From assembly GCF_018448935.1 (NCBI RefSeq), contig NZ_RCWC01000008.1:1-64000 (forward strand): a stretch of DNA of 64,000 nucleotides. Reading direction: 5' to 3'. The position numbers were made by a program, and so were the translations under genes. The notes beneath the pieces were generated by a model that saw only the letters and a program-made list of their open reading frames with translations, did not search any database and had not been told where the DNA came from. Of this stretch, positions 44,988 through 56,941 are shown piece by piece. The stretch comes from Photorhabdus noenieputensis (GTDB taxonomy: Bacteria > Pseudomonadota > Gammaproteobacteria > Enterobacterales > Enterobacteriaceae). Each line of letters starts with the position of its first letter. Position 1 is the stretch's first letter.

Positions 44988-45023
44988 TAGAAAGAGAGAA
45001 CGAGGCAGTTAAAGAAACCTATT

Positions 45024-45150
45024 TATACCCGTCATCTTTCAAGTTGCCTCTTTGTTGGCTGCACTCGCTCACCCCGGTCACATAGTTTTCTATGCTCCCG
45101 GGGATTCGTTCCCTTGCCGTCGCGATGCATCTTGAAATCCATTGGGTATA
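45024..45150 (-). repeat. ERIC element (full, 127 bp, reverse orientation)
   Basis: Fourth complete copy, inverted relative to the others, from tatacccgtcatc to cattgggtata. It lies between the convergent ynfM and the hypothetical gene at 45168 and could act as their terminator hairpin. Confidence 0.95.
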
Positions 45151-45167
45151 TACAACCAAGCCATTGA

Positions 45168-45701
45168 CTAATTAATAATGACTTCAAAATCTGTGGAAAT
45201 TAAATTTGCTAAAAAATTTGAACTCACTTTATTTTTTACAAAAAAAGAGAGATTTGGAAAAATAGAGCCTTTACCACTATAACTTAATTCACCCTCTTTT
45301 ATAATATAACAACAGGGTTCAATTAAATTTATGCTGTACTCTCCGGCACCTGTATCATCGGAATAGATGCCAAAATTATCAAAACCGTTCTCAACGTATT
45401 CCCCATTATTGAAAAACCAATCTTGAGTTGGCTTCTCCCTAGACATTTCTGCTGTAAAATTTCGTGGAGTGAAAAACTGTGCTTTAAACGTGAATGCAAG
45501 ATAAAGATTTGAAACATTTGGATAACAAAATAAGTTGCGAAATTCTGAAATATTCCGGCCATCCAACCATATAAATCCTGGAGTACCAATGCGAAAATTC
45601 AAATTTTCTGCTTTCCACTTCTCTATCTTTCTATCGGGTGCTAATGGGAATTTCATGACGATACCATTTGGAGCATATTTGTTTACATAAATATTAGTCA
45701 T
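45168..45701 (-). CDS. Hypothetical protein
   Basis: The 177-residue soluble protein has no signal or membrane segment and is rich in Phe, Asn and Ser (FRIGTPGFIWLDGRNISEF, IYSDDTGAGEYSINLIEPCC). It is predicted to be mostly beta. No family recognised. GAGG lies nine bases before the ATG chosen; the ATG one codon earlier is equally placed. Single gene. Confidence 0.6.
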   Translation of the reverse strand: MTNIYVNKYAPNGIVMKFPLAPDRKIEKWKAENLNFRIGTPGFIWLDGRNISEFRNLFCYPNVSNLYLAFTFKAQFFTPRNFTAEMSREKPTQDWFFNNGEYVENGFDNFGIYSDDTGAGEYSINLIEPCCYIIKEGELSYSGKGSIFPNLSFFVKNKVSSNFLANLISTDFEVIIN

Positions 45702-46166: not shown

Positions 46167-46385
46167 ATGAATAAGGTTGCAGATCGTGTCAAAAAACACA
46201 GACAACAGCTCAGGATGTCAGGATTAAGGCCCGTTCAAATATGGGTGCCTGATACACGCCTTCCTCATTTTAAAGAAGAGTGTCGGCGTCAAAGCCGTCT
46301 GGCTATGGCAACACAGGACAAGGAAACGGATACACTATTGGAAAACGCGATAAATGAACTAGCTGATTCAGGAGACTGGGAGTGA
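46167..46385 (+). CDS. mazE: MazE-type antitoxin (DUF3018)
   Basis: The 72-residue protein NKVADRVKKHRQQLRMSGLR, then PVQIWVPDTRLPHFKEECRRQ, is an antitoxin of the DUF3018/MazE-like group. It has an N-terminal DNA-binding segment and an acidic C-terminus (ELADSGDWE) that binds the toxin. AGGGTGAAG supports the start. Its stop overlaps the toxin's GTG start (GTGA). Confidence 0.82.
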   Translation: MNKVADRVKKHRQQLRMSGLRPVQIWVPDTRLPHFKEECRRQSRLAMATQDKETDTLLENAINELADSGDWE

Positions 46386-46708
46386 AACGGGGAGACTTGA
46401 TAACAGTTGCTCTACAAGGGGCTTATGGCAAGCCCCGCCCTGCGCTGGTTATCCAATCTGACAACTTTGATGAACATCCCAGTGTTACTATTTTGCCCGT
46501 GACCTCAACATTAATTGATGCACCACTTTTCCGGGTGATGATCGAGCCTCTTCCTGAAACAAATCTTGAAAAACCGTCACAGGTCATGATTGATAAAACC
46601 ATGACTCTCCCGAAAGAAAAAGCTGGCGCAGTATTTGGTAAACTCGATTACGCGACGATGCAACAAGTGGATCGATGTTTAGCTTTGTTTTTAGGTATCG
46701 CAAAATAA
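46382..46708 (+). CDS. mazF: MazF/PemK-type endoribonuclease toxin
   Basis: The 108-residue protein has the MazF/PemK pattern KRGDLITVALQGAYGKPRPALVIQSD, VTILPVTSTLIDAP and 'SQVMIDKTMTLPKEKAGAVFGKLD'. The basic loop between the first strands and the conserved Arg-Pro and Thr/Ser residues are present. It is therefore probably an active mRNA interferase held by the preceding antitoxin. It appears complete, in contrast to the other TA loci in the window. Confidence 0.88.
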   Translation: MKRGDLITVALQGAYGKPRPALVIQSDNFDEHPSVTILPVTSTLIDAPLFRVMIEPLPETNLEKPSQVMIDKTMTLPKEKAGAVFGKLDYATMQQVDRCLALFLGIAK

Positions 46709-46786
46709 AAAAATCATCATCATATAACTTCTTGCAAAATAGTTTTAAATTCAATTTTCGACTTCTCATAAAAGGCGACATCCATG

Positions 46787-46852
46787 ATAACTATGTGACC
46801 GGGGTGAGCGAGCGCAGCCAACAAAGAGGCAACTTGAAAGATGACGGGTATA
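46787..46852 (+). repeat. Half ERIC element
   Basis: Only the right 66 bp of an ERIC remain, from ataactatgtgaccgggg to gatgacgggtata, about 80 bp after mazF. The left half has been replaced by sequence that follows the toxin gene. Confidence 0.85.
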
Positions 46853-46896
46853 TTTAATCAGTCAAAAACAACAGACAAGCAAGACTTTATTTATGA

Positions 46897-47592
46897 TTAA
46901 CAAGTCGCTATCGGCCGTAAAACAATTTCTGCCGGACAACTACCTACTGGATGCTGAAGAATAAAAACAATCGCGTCAGTGACGGATGAAAGCGGGACAG
47001 TTCCTACACCATTTGGTAATACCGCACCTAACACTTCAAGCTGACCCGGTGAGATTGCACATACTCGTACACCTTGTTTCCATAGTTCTTGTTGTAACGC
47101 TACAGTAAACCCAACGACTGCCCATTTTGATGCTGCATAGCAACTAGCCCCAGGCAAACTGGCTTTTCCAGCCAAAGAGCTAATATTGATAACCGAGGGC
47201 TGTGCGCTTGATAATAGATGTGGCAAAGCGAGATATGTCATATGAATTAAAGCAGTGACATTAGTCGTAATAACCTGATCAATTTCTTCCGGTATTAGAT
47301 CCACCAGTTTGCCAAAATGGAAAGCGCCGGCATTATTGATTAATACATCCAATCCACCCAACTTTGCACAGGTGAAATCTATCAACTGCTGGCGGAAATT
47401 ATCATGACAGATGTCCCCAGCAAATGAATATATTTCGCAGTTATCCTGATATTGTCGGGACAATTCTTTAAGTCGATTCTCACATCTTCCGGTTACTACC
47501 ATTCGAGAATCATTGCCTGCAAGCATTTCAGTGATTGCGTGACCAAGCAGGCCACTGGCACCGGTGAGTAATACACGTTTACCACGCAACAC
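46897..47592 (-). CDS. Short-chain dehydrogenase/reductase
   Basis: The 231-residue SDR has KRVLLTGASGLLGHAITEML (TGxxxGxG form), TGRCENRL suggesting NADP use, LINNAGAFHFG, ISSLAGKASLPGA (catalytic Ser) and YAASKWAVVG (Tyr, Lys). GTG start with GGGAGGGAAG directly upstream. It is the last gene of the minus-strand unit with the peptide and the HEAT-cupin genes, 109 bp after the peptide. It may reduce an oxidised group installed by them, by position only. Confidence 0.82.
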   Translation of the reverse strand: MLRGKRVLLTGASGLLGHAITEMLAGNDSRMVVTGRCENRLKELSRQYQDNCEIYSFAGDICHDNFRQQLIDFTCAKLGGLDVLINNAGAFHFGKLVDLIPEEIDQVITTNVTALIHMTYLALPHLLSSAQPSVINISSLAGKASLPGASCYAASKWAVVGFTVALQQELWKQGVRVCAISPGQLEVLGAVLPNGVGTVPLSSVTDAIVFILQHPVGSCPAEIVLRPIATC

Positions 47593-47701
47593 CTTCCCTC
47601 CCTAATAACTCAAAATAGCGGACCTCCATCCGGTGGTATTATTCGCCAATTAGAAATCCGCTCAACTTTATATTGCTATCAAATAGCTACAGAATTATTT
47701 A

Positions 47702-47884
47702 TCATTCGTGTTTTGATGATTCGGTACAAGAACGACAACCAAAGCCAAGCACCCTTCCCGCTTCACTACCAGATAAGGTACGCGGTACGGCCCCAGCCAG
47801 ACTAACCGGTTGGGAAAAAGTCGCTAACCGGAGAGAATTTTCCATTTGGCCTGTTTCAATCTTGCCCAATTTAGTGTTTTTCAT
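47702..47884 (-). CDS. 60-residue peptide, candidate RiPP precursor
   Basis: The frame has a strong ribosome site (AGAGG, eight bases from the ATG). Its N-terminal half has the look of a leader (MKNTKLGKIETGQMENSLRL, then ATFSQPVSLAGAV). Its short C-terminal part holds two Cys in a CxxC and many Ser, Thr and Arg (VLGFGCRSCTESSKHE). There is no signal peptide. It lies between three putative oxygenase genes and a reductase gene on the same strand. No homologue is recognised. A small antitoxin-like or structural peptide cannot be excluded. Confidence 0.5.
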   Translation of the reverse strand: MKNTKLGKIETGQMENSLRLATFSQPVSLAGAVPRTLSGSEAGRVLGFGCRSCTESSKHE

Positions 47885-47943
47885 ATAATTTACCTCTTTT
47901 TTATATTAGTGCGTCTGATATGACGCGGTACTATTAACGCTCG

Positions 47944-48867
47944 CTAGGCCAGCGCTAACATACATTGCTGAGCTTGCACACGGACATAACTACTGGGATC
48001 ACTCATGGCAAGGTGATAAATCTGATCACGATATTGTGTATCGGTAGAAAAACTCAGCATGGAAACAAAAGCGATAGAACGTAGCTCTTCACGAGTATGG
48101 CTGCTGGCAATTATATGCAGTAGCTCTCTGCTACGTTCATTGCCTTCTTTCATCAAAACAGAAAACAAGGCTTTATGTGCACGAAATCGTTCAAACCGCC
48201 CGTTTTTAATACGTGCAACCTGAAAGCCAGAATTATTTTCCCTATCCAGATCAAATTCATATTGGCGCTGTCCATTCCCTCTGGGTTGAATGATGATATT
48301 GATAGAGACGGATAAATTTGGTGGTGGAAATTGAATATGCATATCTTTACTGCGAAAGAAAAATATGACTTTGCCTGGGGATAACATTTGTTCGCCAAAG
48401 TAATTCATAGCGACTTCTTCACCCTCAACGCCATCAACACTGTCATAGTCGTATTCATAAAGACGTGTCGTATAGCCATCACCAAAAAAGTTAGTTGTCA
48501 AAAAATCAAAATTATGGTCATGAGGTTCTAGCCAGGAAAATGGGGCGGGTGCTGACTGAGGACCAGGTGGTAACCATAGAACCATGCGAATAGCAAATCT
48601 CCAGTCGCTGTACAGAATAAATGTCGGTGGCTGAACATCGTTTCCAGACTGGAACTGGTTAGGGGAGACTAATTGGTCACAGATGATGTCCAATATTTCT
48701 TGCTTGTTAGCCGCAAAATCTACCAACCATTGACTGGCTATCTCTATCTCTTCCCGCTGGTAATGGCCACAGGAAACATTGTCCACCATATTACTGGTCT
48801 TCAAAAGCTGAACCAACTCAGGCAATGCCAATGGCTTACCGGGTTTAGGCGTGAATTCAAGCGTCAT
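47944..48867 (-). CDS. Cupin-like putative oxygenase with C-terminal HEAT repeats (copy 2)
   Basis: This 307-residue protein is a paralogue of the upstream gene, aligning without major gaps. Both share the segment H116-D117-H118 (LEPHDHNFDFLTTNFFGDGY here), a later H177 (DMHIQF), the pattern Y-x-Y-D and a strand NLSVSINIII. This is consistent with a metal-binding cupin/2-oxoglutarate-oxygenase-like barrel. The last ~90 residues form HEAT-like helices (ELLHIIASSHTREELRSIAF, SSYVRVQAQQCML). Start at the ATG with GGAG seven bases before; it overlaps the upstream gene by 11 bases. Reaction unknown. Confidence 0.62.
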   Translation of the reverse strand: MTLEFTPKPGKPLALPELVQLLKTSNMVDNVSCGHYQREEIEIASQWLVDFAANKQEILDIICDQLVSPNQFQSGNDVQPPTFILYSDWRFAIRMVLWLPPGPQSAPAPFSWLEPHDHNFDFLTTNFFGDGYTTRLYEYDYDSVDGVEGEEVAMNYFGEQMLSPGKVIFFFRSKDMHIQFPPPNLSVSINIIIQPRGNGQRQYEFDLDRENNSGFQVARIKNGRFERFRAHKALFSVLMKEGNERSRELLHIIASSHTREELRSIAFVSMLSFSTDTQYRDQIYHLAMSDPSSYVRVQAQQCMLALA

Positions 48868-49780
48868 GAATTTTCTCCTGCAAAGTTGCCAATACTGCCT
48901 GAATCGCATTACGAACATAGTTGCTATTGTCAGCCAATGCGCTATCAATCAACGATTGTGGGGCCTGATGACGAAGAATAGCAGCCCATGCCATTGCCCT
49001 GGCTTCTTCCGACTGGTGAGTTTTAGCAATATGGATCAACAGTTTTTGTGTACGTAGATTCCCCTGATGCGCCATCAATGAAAAAATCGAGCGTTGGGAA
49101 ATTACCCGTTGTAAGCTATTGAATATTGGTTTACCAACAATACGCCCTTCCGATTCCGATAATTCAAAAATCGTTTGTCGAACTGAAGGAATACTTTTAG
49201 GAATAATGAGATTCAAAGATGCTGATAACGAAACAGGTTCATGCTGAATGTGCACATCCTTATTCGCGTAATAATAAATAATATCCCCTTCTTCCAGAAA
49301 CATATCCCCTGCGTAGCTGAAAAGTGTTTCCCCGCTGTCACTCTGCTCGATCTGAGAATAGTCAAAACCATACAGAGAAGTACGATATCCAGGACCAAAA
49401 AAACCCACACTCATCAGGTCAAATGCATGATCATGGGCATAACGATAGGAAAAAGGGATACTCCGAGCCTGAAATCCCGTAGGTATCCAGACCATTAAAC
49501 GCAATGTAAAAACTGGGCAAGTGTACAAAACATAGCTTTGTGATTGTCCATTATTGGTATCTTGGAAAGTTTCAGGTGTCACTAAGGCATTACTTATATG
49601 TTGCAACATTTCATGGCGATTAAGCGCTAAAGCCTTAAGATGAGTTGCTGTATTTAACATATCATCCTGGCTATAACAGGATGCTCTCAAACTCTCAAGC
49701 ACGCCGGAATCGGTCAGATATTCAATTAAAGCCGTCAAAGTGATTTGAAAGCCAGGCTCGACTGCCAATTTTATCGCCAT
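48857..49780 (-). CDS. Cupin-like putative oxygenase with C-terminal HEAT repeats (copy 1)
   Basis: The 307-residue protein has the same plan as its downstream paralogue: H116-D117-H118 (RYAHDHAFDLMSVGFFGPGY), H177 (DVHIQH), strand SLSASLNLIIP, then a C-terminal HEAT-like tail (LLIHIAKTHQSEEARAMAW, NSNYVRNAIQAVL). GGGAGG lies eight bases before the ATG, inside the previous gene's end, with two bases between the genes, so translation is coupled. The duplication suggests two successive or two differently specific modifications. Confidence 0.62.
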   Translation of the reverse strand: MAIKLAVEPGFQITLTALIEYLTDSGVLESLRASCYSQDDMLNTATHLKALALNRHEMLQHISNALVTPETFQDTNNGQSQSYVLYTCPVFTLRLMVWIPTGFQARSIPFSYRYAHDHAFDLMSVGFFGPGYRTSLYGFDYSQIEQSDSGETLFSYAGDMFLEEGDIIYYYANKDVHIQHEPVSLSASLNLIIPKSIPSVRQTIFELSESEGRIVGKPIFNSLQRVISQRSIFSLMAHQGNLRTQKLLIHIAKTHQSEEARAMAWAAILRHQAPQSLIDSALADNSNYVRNAIQAVLATLQEKIHDA

Positions 49781-49782
49781 GT

Positions 49783-51600
49783 TTAGTCCTCCCTTGCAAC
49801 GTCAAACCCACTGAGCCGTAAACTATTTTTTGCCGTTTCTCGCATCATCATATCGGTATCTTCACGAGCTATCTGGTGTAACAATGCCAGACACGCAGCA
49901 CTATCAATCTGTGCAAGACTTTCAACCGCCTCCCAGCGAACAAAATTGGCATAATCAGATGTCGCAAGTTTCTCCAGTACAGCACTTGCGCCATGATATT
50001 TCATCGCCCCCAGCAGCCGGACATATAGCTGAATACGTGACGCACTTAAATTAGTACAAATGGTTTCGACGGGTTGTAAGCTCACTCGATCGTAAATCCA
50101 ACTAATCCACCCTTTAGCATCTGAATGTGCAATGAGTAAGAAAGAGCCATTACGATTCTCATAACCGAAATCAAGAATATCCTCGTAAGCTTTAAAGCTA
50201 TATAGCTGGTTTGGTTCGAAAGTAAAAACGCCTAATGAAGTCAATGCTTCTGGTTGTACAAATGGATCATTATGATTAATTTTACATTTGTAATATGGAA
50301 CTTGTATTGCCTCTTGTGATGGATTGATGATAAAAGTATCGAATTCATTGACGTACAGTCTTTCATTATTGGTTTTGCCAATAAAGCGAACAAGTAAATG
50401 AAAGTTTTTCTGTCGGTGAATATAAATACTATCTTCAGAAAGAAGTTCATATTTATCAGTAATTTCTTTCTTTTCTAACAGATCATTTAATATATCGATA
50501 ATGTTATCACGTGATAACTTACCCAAAACCTCACCAACCGACCAGAAATCTCCACCATTATCCGCCATCTTCTTGGTAATTATTTCCTGCAATTGGGCTA
50601 ATTTGGCAATTTCTTCCGCTGCCTGCTCATCAAAATGTAACTGTTTACTCTTGCTAGCTTTGGGTAATCCATGTTTTTCATATAGCGAGGAAAAATAACT
50701 ATCACGTGAAGCACGTAACCAGTCTGATAGAGAAATATTTTTTTCTTCTGCCTCAGTGATAAGATTATCAATGCCTTTTTTCGCGATTAACTGGGCAATA
50801 CCTTTATTAATGAGCATGTTTTCCAAACGATCTTCTGTTTCTTTATTCACTACAATACCCATTCCAACTGAATATTGTGGCGTATTGCCAATATGATAAT
50901 GATGTGGTGGAAGAATAAATATATCACCAGCCTCTATTATCCAGTTATCGGCATAAGGCCGTAGTTTCTCCATATTAAACCGATATTTTATTCCCTCTAT
51001 TTCTTCAAAAATATCCTTATTAAACAGAGACATTTCTTTGGCATTAGGCCCACAATGGAAATGCACTACCGAGCTATAAGGATCATCAAGATGAACACCA
51101 AATGGCGTGTACCCATAGTTACCAATAAACAGACAAGTCCCTATGAAAGTATTTCTTTCGCCAAGAATTTTTCGCAAAGGAGCGAAAATAGAAGAAACTG
51201 CTTGAACAATATAATCAGACCAACGTTCAGTGTCATTGACAATCACACAGAACCGTTCCCCCCCAGTAGCTCGTGATATCCAACTCTCAAATGTCTCGTT
51301 TTCATGAAGCTCCGTATAAAGAATAGGATCAATATGTTCCGCGCTCAATCTCCCTTCTATATATACCCGAATTAAAGACTCCTGAGAAACCATCATTTCT
51401 TTTTTCAATATGCTGAATAGTGAAAATAAAACATCATCAGAAAACAACTCAGGATTAAAAGCTTCTTTTATTAACTTAGCTGACATAATCACAGGTTTAT
51501 TAACTTGATCATAAACTTTTTCATCTTCTCTTATCTTATGCATCTGATAATGTTCACAAACCTCATTGAATTTTTTAACGTACTTAATATAAGCGTTCAT
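49783..51600 (-). CDS. JmjC/cupin-8-like putative Fe(II) dioxygenase with C-terminal HEAT repeats
   Basis: The 605-residue protein (from this start) has a JmjC-type core with the metal triad H170-x-D172 (GYTPFGVHLDDPYSS) and H236 (ILPPHHYHIGNTPQYS). A middle winged-helix-like region (FWSVGEVLGKLSRDNIIDIL) follows, and then a C-terminal HEAT-like segment (VLEKLATSDYANFVRWEAVE, CLALLHQIAREDTDMM). Proteins with this fold hydroxylate Asp, Asn, Arg or His residues in peptides and proteins. It is the first gene of the operon. A 36-codon in-frame extension to 51708 reads like a membrane helix without family match and I leave it out. Confidence 0.65.
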   Translation of the reverse strand: MNAYIKYVKKFNEVCEHYQMHKIREDEKVYDQVNKPVIMSAKLIKEAFNPELFSDDVLFSLFSILKKEMMVSQESLIRVYIEGRLSAEHIDPILYTELHENETFESWISRATGGERFCVIVNDTERWSDYIVQAVSSIFAPLRKILGERNTFIGTCLFIGNYGYTPFGVHLDDPYSSVVHFHCGPNAKEMSLFNKDIFEEIEGIKYRFNMEKLRPYADNWIIEAGDIFILPPHHYHIGNTPQYSVGMGIVVNKETEDRLENMLINKGIAQLIAKKGIDNLITEAEEKNISLSDWLRASRDSYFSSLYEKHGLPKASKSKQLHFDEQAAEEIAKLAQLQEIITKKMADNGGDFWSVGEVLGKLSRDNIIDILNDLLEKKEITDKYELLSEDSIYIHRQKNFHLLVRFIGKTNNERLYVNEFDTFIINPSQEAIQVPYYKCKINHNDPFVQPEALTSLGVFTFEPNQLYSFKAYEDILDFGYENRNGSFLLIAHSDAKGWISWIYDRVSLQPVETICTNLSASRIQLYVRLLGAMKYHGASAVLEKLATSDYANFVRWEAVESLAQIDSAACLALLHQIAREDTDMMMRETAKNSLRLSGFDVARED

Positions 51601-51986
51601 ATGTGATCCCGCCTTTTGATGATAACGAAGAGAGAGATAGGTAGGTAGATAAAAAAAATAATAGGTCAGGATGCTAGAATAGCAAGGGACAATTATATAA
51701 GCACTCATTCATGTGAATAGGTCAAGATCCACTTTAGAACACGTTAATTAAAACAGGAACTGGATAAAAAAAACAAACCCAAGAATATGATCTAGAAATA
51801 ATTTATTTTGGTTTCATAATGAGATAATAATTTATTAAAAATAAAATTATAAGGTGATTTCGCATAGTAAATGCAATAAAGTTAAATAATCAGAAGCATT
51901 ATATTGACATATAAATGCGAATAAAATCACATATTTTACAATTAACTATTATAATCCTTGACAATATCTCACTCTATCTTTTGCCT
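51601..51986. other. AT-rich promoter region of the HEAT-cupin operon
   Basis: About 390 bp lie between the oxygenase gene start and the Rhs terminator. It is AT-rich throughout. No repeat or extra gene was seen. It should contain the promoter driving the 51600-46897 operon leftwards. Confidence 0.4.
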
Positions 51987-52018
51987 CAAAAAAACCAAAA
52001 GGCGACGCAAGCGTCGCC
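51987..52018 (-). terminator. Rho-independent terminator of the Rhs operon
   Basis: A perfect 8-bp GC-rich stem (GGCGACGC tt GCGTCGCC on the minus strand) is followed by TTTTGGTTTTTTTG, 45 bp after the Rhs stop. It separates the two minus-strand operons. Confidence 0.9.
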
Positions 52019-52063
52019 CAATAGCTCTTTTTCGTGAGACTTAACAATCAGCCCACAGGATTT

Positions 52064-55000
52064 TTATATGGTCAAACGGCCTCGCAACACATTACGGGTT
52101 TCAATGGACGATTGACTAAATAGATTCCCGGTACTATTGCGAAATGCTTGATTCACTTCAACGGCTCGAATAGAGGGGTGAACATTTACCGCTTCCGGTT
52201 CCAATTGCGTAAGACGAGATAAAGTATAGGCTTCGCTTCCTTCAGAAGTGCCTGCCGATGAGCTAAGTTCCCAAGTATGATGATTCACTGCATAAGCTGT
52301 ACGCGCAAGATTAATTAGCCCCGAAGTTGTTGACACAGCACCAAAACCCACAGAGACCCAGCCCAAGATATTAGCGGCATTCGCATTACTATTCTCAACG
52401 GCGGAAGCCGCTATCCCCGTAGAGAGGGCCACAGCATTCGCACTCAATGATACTGTGGATAAAGCGATGTCCCAACGTCTGCTAGAACGGCTGGCAATTT
52501 CACCAAATTCAATAGGTACTGACCCGATAACACCCGCGCTGGCTACCTGAGAACCACTCCGTGCCGATTTTATCAGCGAAGAGGTAAAGGTTATTGCGCT
52601 GATACCAAAGCTTAAAACCCCCAACCCCGAACTAATCCAATTTAATATCCCGGCTGTTTTCGGATCTTTTTCCGATAATGCGGCTGACGCAATCCCTATC
52701 GAATCAGCAGCCAATCCAATGACGGTCGCAGTAACTGCAAGTGTACTGGTAGAAGCAACCGCCCCCAGAGCTCCCCCTGCGGCAATTAAACCTGCGCTAA
52801 TTGCCGCGCCAGCCCCCAGTGATACAATCCCAACAATGATACCAATTGCCCCTAGCACAATACCTAATATCCCACCGGCACTAAGATGACCGTTAAGATC
52901 AATCCGATTTATAGGATCGCCCTGGCAATAAGTATAGAGATTAACCCCTCCCCGACCAAAAGGACTCCAACTGTCGGGACTATGAAATCTCATGAGAACC
53001 GGATTGAAAACACGATATCCGTTACCTAAGAAGTACCATCCTGTTACCGGATCAATCTGCGCACCATTCAAACCCGGTAATGAAGAAATTAAACTCCTAA
53101 AACCATAAGGCGTGTAGGACAAAGCCATCAACTCGTTTTCGTTTTGGCTGGCTATCACCGTGTTATTATGATCAGTGCCATATTGATAGTAGGCGGACTG
53201 GCCATTTTTGGTACTCTGATGACCAAGCCGTTGCTTATCGCTGTTCAACCAGGTAATGGTTTCATCACCCAATTGGATATTCGTCACTTTACCGGAAGCA
53301 TAATACTGACGATTAATCGTCCCATTCGCTAAAACTTGTGCGGTTAATTTGTTCAATGCATCATACTGATATTGGCATACCAGAGTACCCTTACTGTCTT
53401 TGACCTGTACCAAGCGATTATTCTGATCGTAAATAAGCGTCTGCCCTTTTTCGTCGCGCGTCAGATTACCGTTGGCATCATAACTTAACTCTATTTGCTG
53501 TTTGTCACTGGTAATACGAATAAGTTGAGTTGGATCAGTTTGACTGAAATGATAATCCACGGTTTCTTTACCATCTCGATATATATTATCAAGCCGTTTG
53601 ATATTACCCCATTGGTCATAATGGTAAATTTGCTGATTTAACACACGGCCAGTATGATCAATCGGAGACTGTTCTCCCTCACATTGGTACTGGCTTAAGC
53701 GCTGATTACTATCATATTGATAACGTTCATTTTTCATAACCACCCCATCGGCGGAGGTGATACGTTGACTGATTTGATTATTTTTTGTATAGCTTAAGGT
53801 AATGACTTGTATTGAGAAATCACTAATTAGCGAGCGTTTTATCTCTCGATCAAAAACATCATATTCGATTTTTGTAACTAATTGGGATAATGATGTTGTG
53901 TCTTTTGTCGTCGTTGTTATTAGCCGTCCAACACTGTCATATTCAAATGTCGCGTATTGCGAACTCTGTTCTGTTTTGACTAATCTTCCTTGGGCATCGT
54001 AGCTATAAACATGATCATGACCAAAACTATCTTTATGACGTTGAATTAAGCCGGACATCGTATAACGGTAATCGCCCGATGAAACGGGTTTATTATCCCG
54101 CGAAAACGATTCGTGCTGTAATACACCCGATGGGAAATAACTGTAATTGCTCTGGGATACCCCTTCTGACGCAGATAATAATGCCCCCGTTTTCGGATGG
54201 TAACGAAAGTTTTGTTGGCTTGTCTCTGTGGTAAATTTGGACATCACACTGCCGAGAGAGTAAAGATAATCGATGTTTTGTTTATTATGTGCAGGAGTGA
54301 CAGACTGGATAGGTTTATCACCTTGAGGACCATATAAATATTCCGTTTTGCGCCCACCCACCGTATCGCTGGTTACTCGCCCAAGACCATCATAAGCTAA
54401 CGAGCCTAATTGTGTTCCATTCACGTTCAGTGCAGAAATTAATTCTTCATGGCTAAAGCTGGCATAAGCGGATTCTAATATTGTTCGGTCTGGCAACGTT
54501 TTTTTCACTATACGATCAAATACATCGTATTCAATTTGGGTAGCATAACCTTCCGCATCTGTTTCAGTCACCGTACGACCAAATCCATCATAACGATAGG
54601 TTCGAGTGCTATATATCACACCATCAGGATACACAACTTTAATTGAAGCAGGTTGTTCAAAGTTATTTTGCTGAATATTTAGCATCCCCAATCCTTTGAC
54701 CCCTTGAGTAATTGTTCTCGTAATAGGATCATGGATTTCTAGCTCTATCCGACCATCGCTGTATTCAGTGCTGTAACGATTTCCCCAACCATCATATTGA
54801 TAGGTTTTCGTTGCAACCAAAGGAGTCGTCAAGCGAGTCAAAGGATTAGCAGATAAATCCCATAACCAATCATTTGAAATTTCTTTGATCAATTGCCCCA
54901 AAACATCATATTGTCTGGCAAGAACTTTTCGATATGTACCTTGATAAACCCCCGATGTTCCCCAAGTACCATCATCATCTTGTTCTTCAATCGAACAAAT

Positions 55001-56941
55001 ACGCCCCATTCCATCGTAATGGGTTTTACGCCTGACACCTTGGGAATCAATTTCTATCATCACCGGCCAAAAATCATTTTCGTCACCACCGGGATATTGA
55101 TAAACATAATTACGTTTAGTTTCTTTTGTCGTACCAGGGTCAATAATTTGACCTGTAATTCGGCCCAGAAGATCATAAGACTGATCTGTAATCACACGGT
55201 TTACATCAACTTTACGAAGCTGGCGATGTGTATAAATAGAGGTCACATTTTTCGATTCCATATGCGCCCCATCAAACCCCGTCACCGTAGAGTTTGTGGT
55301 CATCTCACTTTCTGAATATTCATATTTAAATGTTGTGACCGTTTGCTGATTATTCATTACCGATGTTATTTTCGCTAACGAGCCATGAGATTTGCTCGTC
55401 GGTGAATTCACATAACTAAACGTTCTCACTATTTTACTATCTATGGTTTCTGAAACTTTGCTGACATATTCCTTTATATAAGCACCTGTAAAAGTCGGCA
55501 ATTTTTGATATGTGTAGTGAGTTACTCTATTCGCAACACTTTGAGCGGCATCAGGCGATCCTTTTTGCGTCGCTGATTTTAAAAACCGGGAAAAGCCCAA
55601 TGGATCGGCAGGACAATTATTACCTTCACCATTCACCGGATAATAAACATATTCTTTCTGTACTCCACTGGTTTCAGTAATAAGTAGAGTATTTCCCCAA
55701 TCATCGCTTTTAATATTAACGGTCTCTTCTCGTGAAGTATTGGTCTGTAAGTCTGTGTAATGCGTTAACACCCGAGAGGGTTGTTGTAAATTTTCTGGTT
55801 GCTCGGAGAAACTTTTTGACGGATCTTCATTGTAAGTAATTTCTGTTGTAATTCTCTTATTATCTTGTGTTCTTGCTTCTTTAGTCATTAAATGGAATTT
55901 ATTAAACACTCTTTCTGTTACTGAAATGACATTTTGACCATCTAAAATACGTTCAATGGATGAATAGGTATATTTTCCTGTGACCAAATACAAATTATCC
56001 TGGTTAGAATCAAAACTTGTCCGGCCAGAAGAATAGCCCAAGAAATTATGTACTGAACTATATTCATAGGATTTGCTGATCGCAGGCTGCCCATTACCAG
56101 GTTGAATAGTCAATGCAGCAGCATAAGGAATAGATTCCGTGTCCGTCACTTTATGTCCATTCTCTTTATAACTTACCAGCTCAACATAGCCTGTTGGTGT
56201 ACGAAAAGCGCTAATAACCGGAAATATTCCTTTTAATGTCTGATAGGTCATCTTAAATCTGGCAGAATCAATAGGGCCAGAAGCATCATAAGGTACCGTC
56301 ACCGTAATAAGGTAATCATTACGATAATCGAATGAGATTTTCGCAGAGATATTATTATCATCAGGGTATTCGACTGATGTACAATTATTTCCAGAGTAAT
56401 TGAGTTTAAGGTAGGTTTTACCCGTCACACGGTATTTTATTTCAGACAATGCAAATCTTGAATTATAAATTAAATCAAATGCTTCACCATCTGGAAATTC
56501 AAGTGCCACCGTTTTTGCAATGTCACTTGATCCAATTCGTTTAAGTGTTTCTATAATACCATTCTTATTATAAACATAGAAAGTGTTACTATCGAGTTTA
56601 TATACACGTAAATCTTTTAATTTTTTATCTTTAAAACTAATGTCATTATTATTTGGTGGCAATGGCTTACATTTAAATTGCTCTCCATTTGCCCGGCTAA
56701 ATGTGAGTGTCTTTACATCTAGTGTTGTTAATGAAAACCGCCAGCCAATCCCAAATCCATTATTTAACGTTGTTAATGGCGAAAATGATAAATTAAGTAC
56801 CTGTTCAATATTACCGACATTATTTGGTCTCAACGTGATAATGTTGATATTTGCGCTATATTGACCTGTTCTGGGATCGACACCGGTATCAATATAAGAT
56901 CCAAAATTAAATGCATTGGAATATATATCGTTAGCCTTCAT
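52064..56941 (-). CDS. Rhs/YD-repeat giant protein with hydrophobic C-terminal region
   Basis: The 1625-residue protein begins with the N-terminal domain of insect-associated Rhs proteins (FNFGSYIDTGVDPRTGQYSA, then NGFGIGWRFSL). Many YD repeats follow (YDGxGR, YDxxGRL, YDANGNLTR). It closes with the Rhs core signature near residues 1290-1345 (GWYFLGNGYRVFNPVLMRF, SPDSWSPFGRGGVNLYTYCQ). The ~280 C-terminal residues form the variable module: Gly/Ala-rich hydrophobic segments (GIVLGAIGIIVGIVSLGAGA), then a polar tail. This is where Rhs and TccC proteins carry their toxic part. A membrane-active role is a guess. Last gene of the KS-ACP operon, 177 bp after the previous gene. Confidence 0.87.
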   Translation of the reverse strand: MKANDIYSNAFNFGSYIDTGVDPRTGQYSANINIITLRPNNVGNIEQVLNLSFSPLTTLNNGFGIGWRFSLTTLDVKTLTFSRANGEQFKCKPLPPNNNDISFKDKKLKDLRVYKLDSNTFYVYNKNGIIETLKRIGSSDIAKTVALEFPDGEAFDLIYNSRFALSEIKYRVTGKTYLKLNYSGNNCTSVEYPDDNNISAKISFDYRNDYLITVTVPYDASGPIDSARFKMTYQTLKGIFPVISAFRTPTGYVELVSYKENGHKVTDTESIPYAAALTIQPGNGQPAISKSYEYSSVHNFLGYSSGRTSFDSNQDNLYLVTGKYTYSSIERILDGQNVISVTERVFNKFHLMTKEARTQDNKRITTEITYNEDPSKSFSEQPENLQQPSRVLTHYTDLQTNTSREETVNIKSDDWGNTLLITETSGVQKEYVYYPVNGEGNNCPADPLGFSRFLKSATQKGSPDAAQSVANRVTHYTYQKLPTFTGAYIKEYVSKVSETIDSKIVRTFSYVNSPTSKSHGSLAKITSVMNNQQTVTTFKYEYSESEMTTNSTVTGFDGAHMESKNVTSIYTHRQLRKVDVNRVITDQSYDLLGRITGQIIDPGTTKETKRNYVYQYPGGDENDFWPVMIEIDSQGVRRKTHYDGMGRICSIEEQDDDGTWGTSGVYQGTYRKVLARQYDVLGQLIKEISNDWLWDLSANPLTRLTTPLVATKTYQYDGWGNRYSTEYSDGRIELEIHDPITRTITQGVKGLGMLNIQQNNFEQPASIKVVYPDGVIYSTRTYRYDGFGRTVTETDAEGYATQIEYDVFDRIVKKTLPDRTILESAYASFSHEELISALNVNGTQLGSLAYDGLGRVTSDTVGGRKTEYLYGPQGDKPIQSVTPAHNKQNIDYLYSLGSVMSKFTTETSQQNFRYHPKTGALLSASEGVSQSNYSYFPSGVLQHESFSRDNKPVSSGDYRYTMSGLIQRHKDSFGHDHVYSYDAQGRLVKTEQSSQYATFEYDSVGRLITTTTKDTTSLSQLVTKIEYDVFDREIKRSLISDFSIQVITLSYTKNNQISQRITSADGVVMKNERYQYDSNQRLSQYQCEGEQSPIDHTGRVLNQQIYHYDQWGNIKRLDNIYRDGKETVDYHFSQTDPTQLIRITSDKQQIELSYDANGNLTRDEKGQTLIYDQNNRLVQVKDSKGTLVCQYQYDALNKLTAQVLANGTINRQYYASGKVTNIQLGDETITWLNSDKQRLGHQSTKNGQSAYYQYGTDHNNTVIASQNENELMALSYTPYGFRSLISSLPGLNGAQIDPVTGWYFLGNGYRVFNPVLMRFHSPDSWSPFGRGGVNLYTYCQGDPINRIDLNGHLSAGGILGIVLGAIGIIVGIVSLGAGAAISAGLIAAGGALGAVASTSTLAVTATVIGLAADSIGIASAALSEKDPKTAGILNWISSGLGVLSFGISAITFTSSLIKSARSGSQVASAGVIGSVPIEFGEIASRSSRRWDIALSTVSLSANAVALSTGIAASAVENSNANAANILGWVSVGFGAVSTTSGLINLARTAYAVNHHTWELSSSAGTSEGSEAYTLSRLTQLEPEAVNVHPSIRAVEVNQAFRNSTGNLFSQSSIETRNVLRGRLTI

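Follow-up and report, generated by a model that had tools for sequence, protein, structure and literature searches.

In biphenomycin-type pathways for ribosomally synthesized and post-translationally modified peptides (RiPPs), with the JmjC hydroxylase BipG and the cupin-like PbsQ, a small precursor is processed by metalloenzymes that include a side-chain hydroxylase, and two reports describe hydroxylation of ornithine by JmjC or cupin-like enzymes (PMC12707348, PMC12257519). According to a third report, bacterial JmjC (PF08007) homologues occur in RiPP-like contexts, and leader-binding RRE domains can be fused to JmjC domains (PMC12710340). Here we analysed a five-gene cassette in the first 64,000 nucleotides of contig NZ_RCWC01000008.1 of Photorhabdus noenieputensis (the whole stretch is hereafter the window), whose probable product is a small peptide chemically modified by a pair of HEAT-repeat enzymes. 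Among the open-access matches listed, judged by title and abstract opening, we found no description of HEAT-repeat RiPP enzymes of this kind. The five genes, encoding proteins A, B and C, a peptide D and a short-chain dehydrogenase/reductase (SDR) E, all lie on the minus strand where an earlier reading of the letters alone (the sequence-only reading) had placed them, and its gap of 2 bases between A and B and overlap of 11 bases between B and C were confirmed. The features are as follows.

49783-51600, minus strand: protein A, 605 amino acids from the ATG at 51600 (the mechanically called open reading frame, ORF, begins at 51708)
50806-51600, minus strand: residues 1-265 of A, JmjC domain with H170-x-D172...H236, assigned by motif and profile comparison
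49783-50610, minus strand: residues 331-605 of A plus the stop codon, putative inactive partner with HEAT repeats, lacking the H-D-H...H residues and encoded by a separate gene in other bacteria
48857-49780, minus strand: protein B, HDH-HEAT enzyme 1, 307 amino acids, H116-D117-H118...H177
47944-48867, minus strand: protein C, HDH-HEAT enzyme 2, paralogue of B, 307 amino acids from its ATG (the mechanically called ORF is longer)
47702-47884, minus strand: putative precursor peptide D, 60 amino acids, preceded by AAAAAAGAGGTAAATTATATG
47789-47827, minus strand: residues 20-32 of D (LATFSQPVSLAGA), proposed recognition segment, a motif chosen after inspection
47735-47764, minus strand: residues 41-50 of D, EAGRVLGFGC, by alignment the most conserved block of this peptide family
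47705-47734, minus strand: residues 51-60 of D, RSCTESSKHE, variable tail, its RSC observed only together with a JmjC-partner fusion
46897-47592, minus strand: SDR oxidoreductase E, 231 amino acids, GTG start

The cassette resembles the biphenomycin-type pathways in combining a small putative precursor with candidate metalloenzymes, including a possible side-chain hydroxylase. However, its core enzymes are HDH-HEAT pairs, D lacks the FRF motif, and Pfam and NCBIfam scans, which covered these genes and part of the rest of the window, found no MNIO, B12 radical SAM, arginase or TldD-type protease among the five genes.

The whole cassette is kept in four further Photorhabdus genomes, and this conservation indicates more than a chance arrangement. 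Among the 12 Photorhabdus genomes searched, the enzymes occur in five (G000 and four others), and both the peptide and the SDR (E-value <= 1e-40) occur in exactly the same five; in this genus the cassette is an all-or-none unit. The 60-codon peptide noticed in the sequence-only reading together with its ribosome site is indeed present behind AAAAAAGAGGTAAATTATATG and conserved in these five genomes at 90-100% identity, while Pfam contains no match for it. Compared with the most distant carrier (L020), residues 18-60 of D show 14-16 synonymous and 0-1 nonsynonymous differences, against 5.5-8.5 and 5.5-6.5, respectively, in residues 1-17, the split at residue 18 having been set after the alignment was seen. 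Given this identity and the near-absence of nonsynonymous changes in residues 18-60, D is a real, constrained gene under purifying selection, and in Photorhabdus its presumed core is fixed as well. E is a clear SDR (PF00106, E-value 5.4e-44), as had been read from the letters; it also matches SDR models of NCBIfam, and its TGASGLLG and YAASK are presumably the SDR motifs.

Relatives of the enzymes were collected by one scan of genome contigs with a single pattern around H-x-H, which matched 188 stretches. Of these, 178 were relatives, and we retained the 80 best, corresponding to 79 loci (L017-L095). Ca. Paraburkholderia kirkii has all five genes in the same order, and Yersinia similis has the partner, both enzymes, the peptide and the SDR but no JmjC domain. 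Six Legionella loci carry the partner, a single enzyme, the peptide and the SDR, the latter two on the opposite strand, near a separate Cupin_8-like gene (tested by Pfam at two of these loci); BLAST gave no signal of homology between this Legionella Cupin_8 gene and the JmjC domain of A. Ca. Burkholderia humilis (L028) has the partner and an enzyme, with no recognised peptide or SDR, on a contig that looks doubtful. The enzyme was found in 7 of 45 Legionella genomes and, in a sample across the phylum, in 15 of 398 genomes, the window's own included. In Legionella sp. PC1000 (L027, 6914-8684) a transposase-like ORF lies within the HDH-HEAT gene and interrupts it.

In the enzyme tree, which is midpoint-rooted and holds several long-branched rows of unsure placement, the Photorhabdus/Yersinia/Paraburkholderia/Legionella clade comprises 21 rows with support 100/94. 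Since the B and C branches each contain Photorhabdus, Yersinia and Paraburkholderia, B and C split before these three parted; the single Legionella copy falls next to both. A peptide profile built from nine peptides of this clade (family 1) matched 12 of 85 tested loci, all of them among the 13 loci of the clade, and none of the 72 others. The sequence-only reading had proposed that absence of the peptide beside homologous enzymes would speak against a RiPP-type system; instead, the peptide accompanies nearly all enzymes of its clade and other peptides lie by most other pairs, so that the conservation and recurrence of the peptide support such a system.

The nine peptides align around [LI]AGA..[RT].[LIV][ST][GA].E[AE]GR[VA][LI]G[FW]GC with a variable tail. 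The CxxC motif and Ser/Thr-rich C-terminus, which the sequence-only reading had pointed out in D, are not the conserved part. Conservation centres instead on [LI]AGA...E[AE]GR[VA][LI]G[FW]GC, and of the nine peptides only those of Photorhabdus and P. kirkii have the second Cys of CxxC. All nine share R44, while R51 occurs only together with a fused JmjC domain. Likewise, the RSC tail is present in the two lineages with this fusion and absent from Y. similis, whose 16.5-kb locus has no JmjC match, and from Legionella, where the Cupin_8 gene is separate.

B and C share 32% identity, and both have H116-D-H118 and H177, as read before; the equivalent reading of A, which carries H170-L-D172 and H236, was also correct. 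We name B, C and their relatives HDH-HEAT enzymes rather than cupins because they match neither Cupin_2 nor JmjC_2. Their earlier description as cupin-like rested only on the H-D-H...H pattern and found no support in sequence and profile tests: none of 53 family members has a Pfam cupin match, and comparison of the B/C profile with Cupin_2 and JmjC_2 by hhalign gave no signal (E-values 0.13-0.68, these and all further profile E-values being for single comparisons; 0.33-0.93 for unrelated SDR comparisons), which is a weak negative. The positive controls, JmjC_2 and the JmjC domain of A each against Cupin_2, gave 7.2e-6 and 3.3e-5, respectively. The Cupin_2 set consisted of segments picked by a stop-free frame and the H-x-H pattern, where 28 of 30 had H-x-H and were used, including four (L143, L144, L148 and L167) that look non-cupin by eye. 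A search of solved structures with the B/C profile found no cupin either, and neither Pfam nor NCBIfam has a family model for these enzymes. On the other hand, the C-terminal HEAT-like repeats proposed for all three proteins held up: A matches PF13646 above the Pfam cut-off (E-value 8.6e-8, 32.8 versus 27.7 bits), and although B stays below it (E-value 0.04) and C has no match, profile alignment places the C-terminal third of each against the HEAT region of A. HEAT_2 is matched by 6 of the 53 members at E-value <= 0.1.

Ligand-like residues are conserved across homologues, as the sequence-only reading would have it. The conservation of H-x-H is partly by construction, since the scan pattern fixes it and some residues after it; the pattern does not include R94, W98, G129, G131, Y132, H177, Q179, N190 and Q202, and these are invariant in 87 of 88 rows, the remaining row, most likely a 23-residue fragment from L074, being gapped at these positions. 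In 84 of the 86 enzyme rows, L055 and L073 being the exceptions, an ORF ends at or near the enzyme start. This ORF is B itself before C-type rows; it is transposase-like in L027, implausible in L047, and cut or partly masked in L044, L082 and L086.

The N-terminal domain of A aligns with the JmjC_2 hydroxylases (PF08007), which we take to be of the RoxA/YcfD type. It falls below the Pfam cut-off (15.3 versus 22 bits), and NCBIfam gives only two weak sub-threshold matches for A; however, profile comparison with JmjC_2 gave an E-value of 2.6e-4, then 1.1e-5 in a repeat (81.9%), with the H-x-D...H triad in register, whereas an unrelated SDR control profile gave 0.33 and 0.47. Despite its Pfam score, A has the H-x-D/E...H triad in a JmjC domain that marks JmjC 2-oxoglutarate oxygenases. 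A search of solved structures with this domain alone returned no match at all. Unlike the JmjC_2 hydroxylases, A is fused to an apparently inactive HEAT partner. A partner profile of 24 rows, including the C-terminal half of A, aligned with the enzyme profile over 265 columns (95.8%, E-value 7.7e-9), with the stretch from H118 onward deleted and no histidine matching H116 or H177. Because this alignment lacks the H-D-H...H residues, A is a JmjC domain fused to a paralogue of B and C that looks catalytically dead. Accordingly, the view of A as a HEAT-tailed JmjC oxygenase stands as far as the JmjC domain and the repeats are concerned, but the HEAT half is the inactive paralogue, a separate gene elsewhere, and we rejected A as a third independent HEAT oxygenase.

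Homologues of the JmjC domain of A also adjoin arginase-family genes on a Pantoea and a Klebsiella plasmid (25.7% and 27.4% identity), in small operons resembling natural-product clusters. Unlike the Photorhabdus cassette, they have no HDH-HEAT pair among the annotated neighbours. Each of these operons (L099 4179-9250 in Pantoea; L100 4195-10145 in Klebsiella) has an arginase-family gene, two JmjC-like genes and a gene like those of the major facilitator superfamily (MFS), with a small divergent ORF upstream, and looks like a peptide natural-product cluster.

Outside the Photorhabdus clade, the enzyme pair is again accompanied by small peptides. Small ORFs led by a Shine-Dalgarno (SD) sequence lie by the pair in Alteromonas (L011), an uncultured Alteromonadaceae (L064), Pseudidiomarina (L042), Thalassotalea (L091), Maricaulis (L079), Sphingomonas (L090), L124-L127 and possibly Blastopirellula (L051). 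In Lysobacter psychrotolerans (L052, 8859-9546), the HEAT pair is followed by three SD-led peptides, paralogous and in tandem, which are 39-42 residues long and have hydrophobic, Trp-rich ends. Outside the Photorhabdus type, the C-terminal half is hydrophobic in many peptides, whereas the ends of the Photorhabdus type are not hydrophobic. A loose first-half motif, [VTIA][GSTA][LIVMFA]xG[ASGQT], which was chosen after inspection, is present in 16 of 39 peptides, where shuffling predicts 2.0, and is missing from 23, several of the 39 being close relatives. Genes for ABC transporter ATPases are immediate neighbours of the pair in L011, L042, L082 and L091, whereas in L051 one gene intervenes. In Mucilaginibacter (L034) the HEAT pair has LanC upstream, a Peptidase_C39 exporter downstream and small ORFs, reminiscent of lanthipeptide or C39-exported clusters; none of these was seen among the Photorhabdus genes by Pfam, nor by eye in the Legionella loci. 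An SDR beside the pair was found in a single clade, with two weaker SDR matches elsewhere, in L084 and L091.

A second peptide family, with the consensus MxLPKIDLxSLPDLDxxTGLFGS...DDRIVIxMVYxYE, lies directly before the pair in Sphingomonadales loci; it was found at 50 loci by ORF search and 51 by six-frame search, none in the first clade. Neither family profile picks up the loci of the other family, while the enzymes of both can be aligned. Over the 85 loci, the two profiles recognise a peptide at 63, inspection by eye assigns one at 13, and 9 have none. Among 199 genomes of the family of G576, which we infer to be the Sphingomonadaceae in a broad sense, the peptide occurs in 61, the enzyme in 73 and both in 60, counts that are uncorrected for kinship and that test co-occurrence rather than discovery, since some of these genomes supplied rows of both profiles. 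The peptide lies upstream on the same strand in 59 of 61 cases, at a median of 991 bases from the enzyme, which leaves room for the partner gene. The exceptions are G850, which is 85% complete and has the peptide only, and G983, where peptide and enzyme are separated by 40 kb. In thirteen genomes the enzyme occurs but this peptide does not (G664 and 12 that were checked together), and 11 of the 12 have another SD-led small ORF just upstream, with a first half that looks similar by eye. One stop codon lies inside the matched peptide frame in G948, G1004 and G990, and inside the enzyme frame in G791, G839, G983, G656 and G997; these in-frame stops may reflect decay in some lineages. Among the matches listed, the Sphingomonadales loci seem by eye to lie among housekeeping-like genes, a setting that would suit a physiological role.

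Taken as a whole, these observations are best explained, with moderate probability, by a RiPP pathway in which D is the precursor, HDH-HEAT enzymes with an inactive partner form the core maturase, and the JmjC domain and the SDR add further steps. A small encoded precursor beside modifying enzymes, as in a RiPP, is evident here from adjacency and co-inheritance, while the modification itself is our inference. D would be made ribosomally and then modified by a heteromer of an HDH-HEAT enzyme (B or C) with the inactive HEAT paralogue in the C-terminal half of A. This heteromer may recognise the first half of D, around FxxxVSLAGA, and modify the conserved EAGRVLGFGC block, with a metal probably held by H116, H118 and H177. 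B and C, having split by duplication, might act on different positions or in sequence, and the SDR would oxidise or reduce a group made by them. The JmjC domain may hydroxylate a side chain, most likely that of an arginine, with R51 of the RSC tail as the first candidate; arginine is a reasonable target given the ornithine hydroxylation in biphenomycin-type RiPPs and the JmjC relatives beside arginase-family genes. On this model the SDR would add its step in this clade, and the JmjC domain in Photorhabdus and P. kirkii. The chance that these enzymes define a new RiPP class, with a heteromeric metalloenzyme of HDH-HEAT protein and inactive HEAT paralogue acting on short precursors to install a novel modification, and that this class spans Pseudomonadota, Bacteroidota and Planctomycetota and is common in Sphingomonadaceae, appears to us about even. 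If so, a peptide-modifying enzyme family without a Pfam or NCBIfam model of its own has gone unnoticed although it is present in 73 of 199 genomes of one family, and as most loci offer a ready enzyme-peptide pair, its chemistry is testable by co-expression and mass spectrometry.

Several observations weigh against this pathway. No product, transcript or modified peptide is known, and the Pfam scan found no exporter or protease among the five Photorhabdus genes. A leader-binding RRE domain was likewise not seen in the Pfam and NCBIfam scans, although no search was aimed at it. Profile comparison gave no support for the cupin assignment of B and C. A distant member on a Vibrio plasmid, not among the 88 rows, keeps the three histidines but not D117, N190 and Q202. 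No peptide was recognised at 9 of the 85 loci (L012, L028, L047, L053, L073, L078, L082, L084 and L086), of which L028, L073, L082 and L086 are cut by contig ends or doubtful; the small ORFs upstream in Mucilaginibacter have no recognised SD sequence; and for the 13 assignments made by eye, there were further small ORFs that satisfied the same loose SD criterion. In addition, the link between the JmjC domain and R51 compares two lineages with two.

Among other explanations, D could be a small fixed subunit or regulator of a HEAT complex whose true substrate is another molecule. The near-invariance of the peptide in Photorhabdus is what a subunit would show, and the missing exporter and protease fit as well; however, the peptides diverge between lineages beyond mutual profile detection while the enzymes can still be aligned, Lysobacter carries three paralogous copies in tandem, and exporters, LanC or a C39 exporter lie near the pair in some lineages, so we consider a subunit unlikely. 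Marginally less likely still is that D serves as a scaffold that yields a small molecule by cleavage, as for pyrroloquinoline quinone and 3-thiaglutamate, with the SDR acting on this molecule after its release. A short conserved block, E[AE]GR[VA][LI]G[FW]GC, followed by a variable tail would suit a scaffold, and a classical SDR usually acts on small molecules, but Pfam and NCBIfam show no peptidase or peptide ligase among the five genes, and the SDR is confined to one clade save for the two weaker matches.

The remaining two explanations are both very improbable in our judgement. In one, a cellular protein is the target of the JmjC and HEAT proteins, and the peptide gene sits beside theirs as an unrelated gene. 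In its favour, RoxA/YcfD acts in this way on a ribosomal protein, profile comparison relates A's JmjC domain to JmjC_2, and HEAT repeats bind proteins in general, yet peptide and enzymes are co-inherited across genera and families and the same genome encodes its own separate JmjC_2 protein. The other takes the peptide as a membrane-active bacteriocin or toxin and the HEAT pair as immunity or binding proteins, for which the hydrophobic C-terminal halves of many peptides of other types and the ABC transporter genes near some of them can be cited. Against it, the Photorhabdus-type ends are not hydrophobic, and H-D-H, H177, Q179, N190, Q202, R94 and W98 show no change in 87 of the 88 rows, which suggests catalysis, the Vibrio member departing at three. 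As to known anti-phage defence proteins, A, B, C and the SDR had no PADLOC match at E-value <= 0.01; two stretches from viral contigs matched in the search for relatives, and neither was confirmed.

As to the setting of the cassette, promoter and terminator scans agree with chance expectation (16 promoters found versus 17.6 expected; 5 terminator-like matches versus 4.1 in shuffles), and no RNA family was found in the window. One of the terminator-like matches lies between the preceding gene and A:

52000-52019, minus strand (52019-52000): terminator-like hairpin, consensus match only

Just upstream, at 52064-56941 on the minus strand, is a gene for a 1625-residue Rhs/YD-repeat protein that resembles, in sequence style, the C component of Tc insecticidal toxins. 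Some 1.9 kb past the cassette there is an MFS gene on the other strand. Downstream, likewise on the opposite strand, the plus-strand region 46167-46708 has a gene for a MazE-like antitoxin (PF11455), and the ORF that follows it directly resembles its toxin partner by position and style. Two further regions downstream of the cassette, 45019-45187 and 46675-46857, share a near-identical stretch in their ORF translations (...YVTGVSE[CR]SQQRGNLKDDGY...), which suggests an interspersed repeat.

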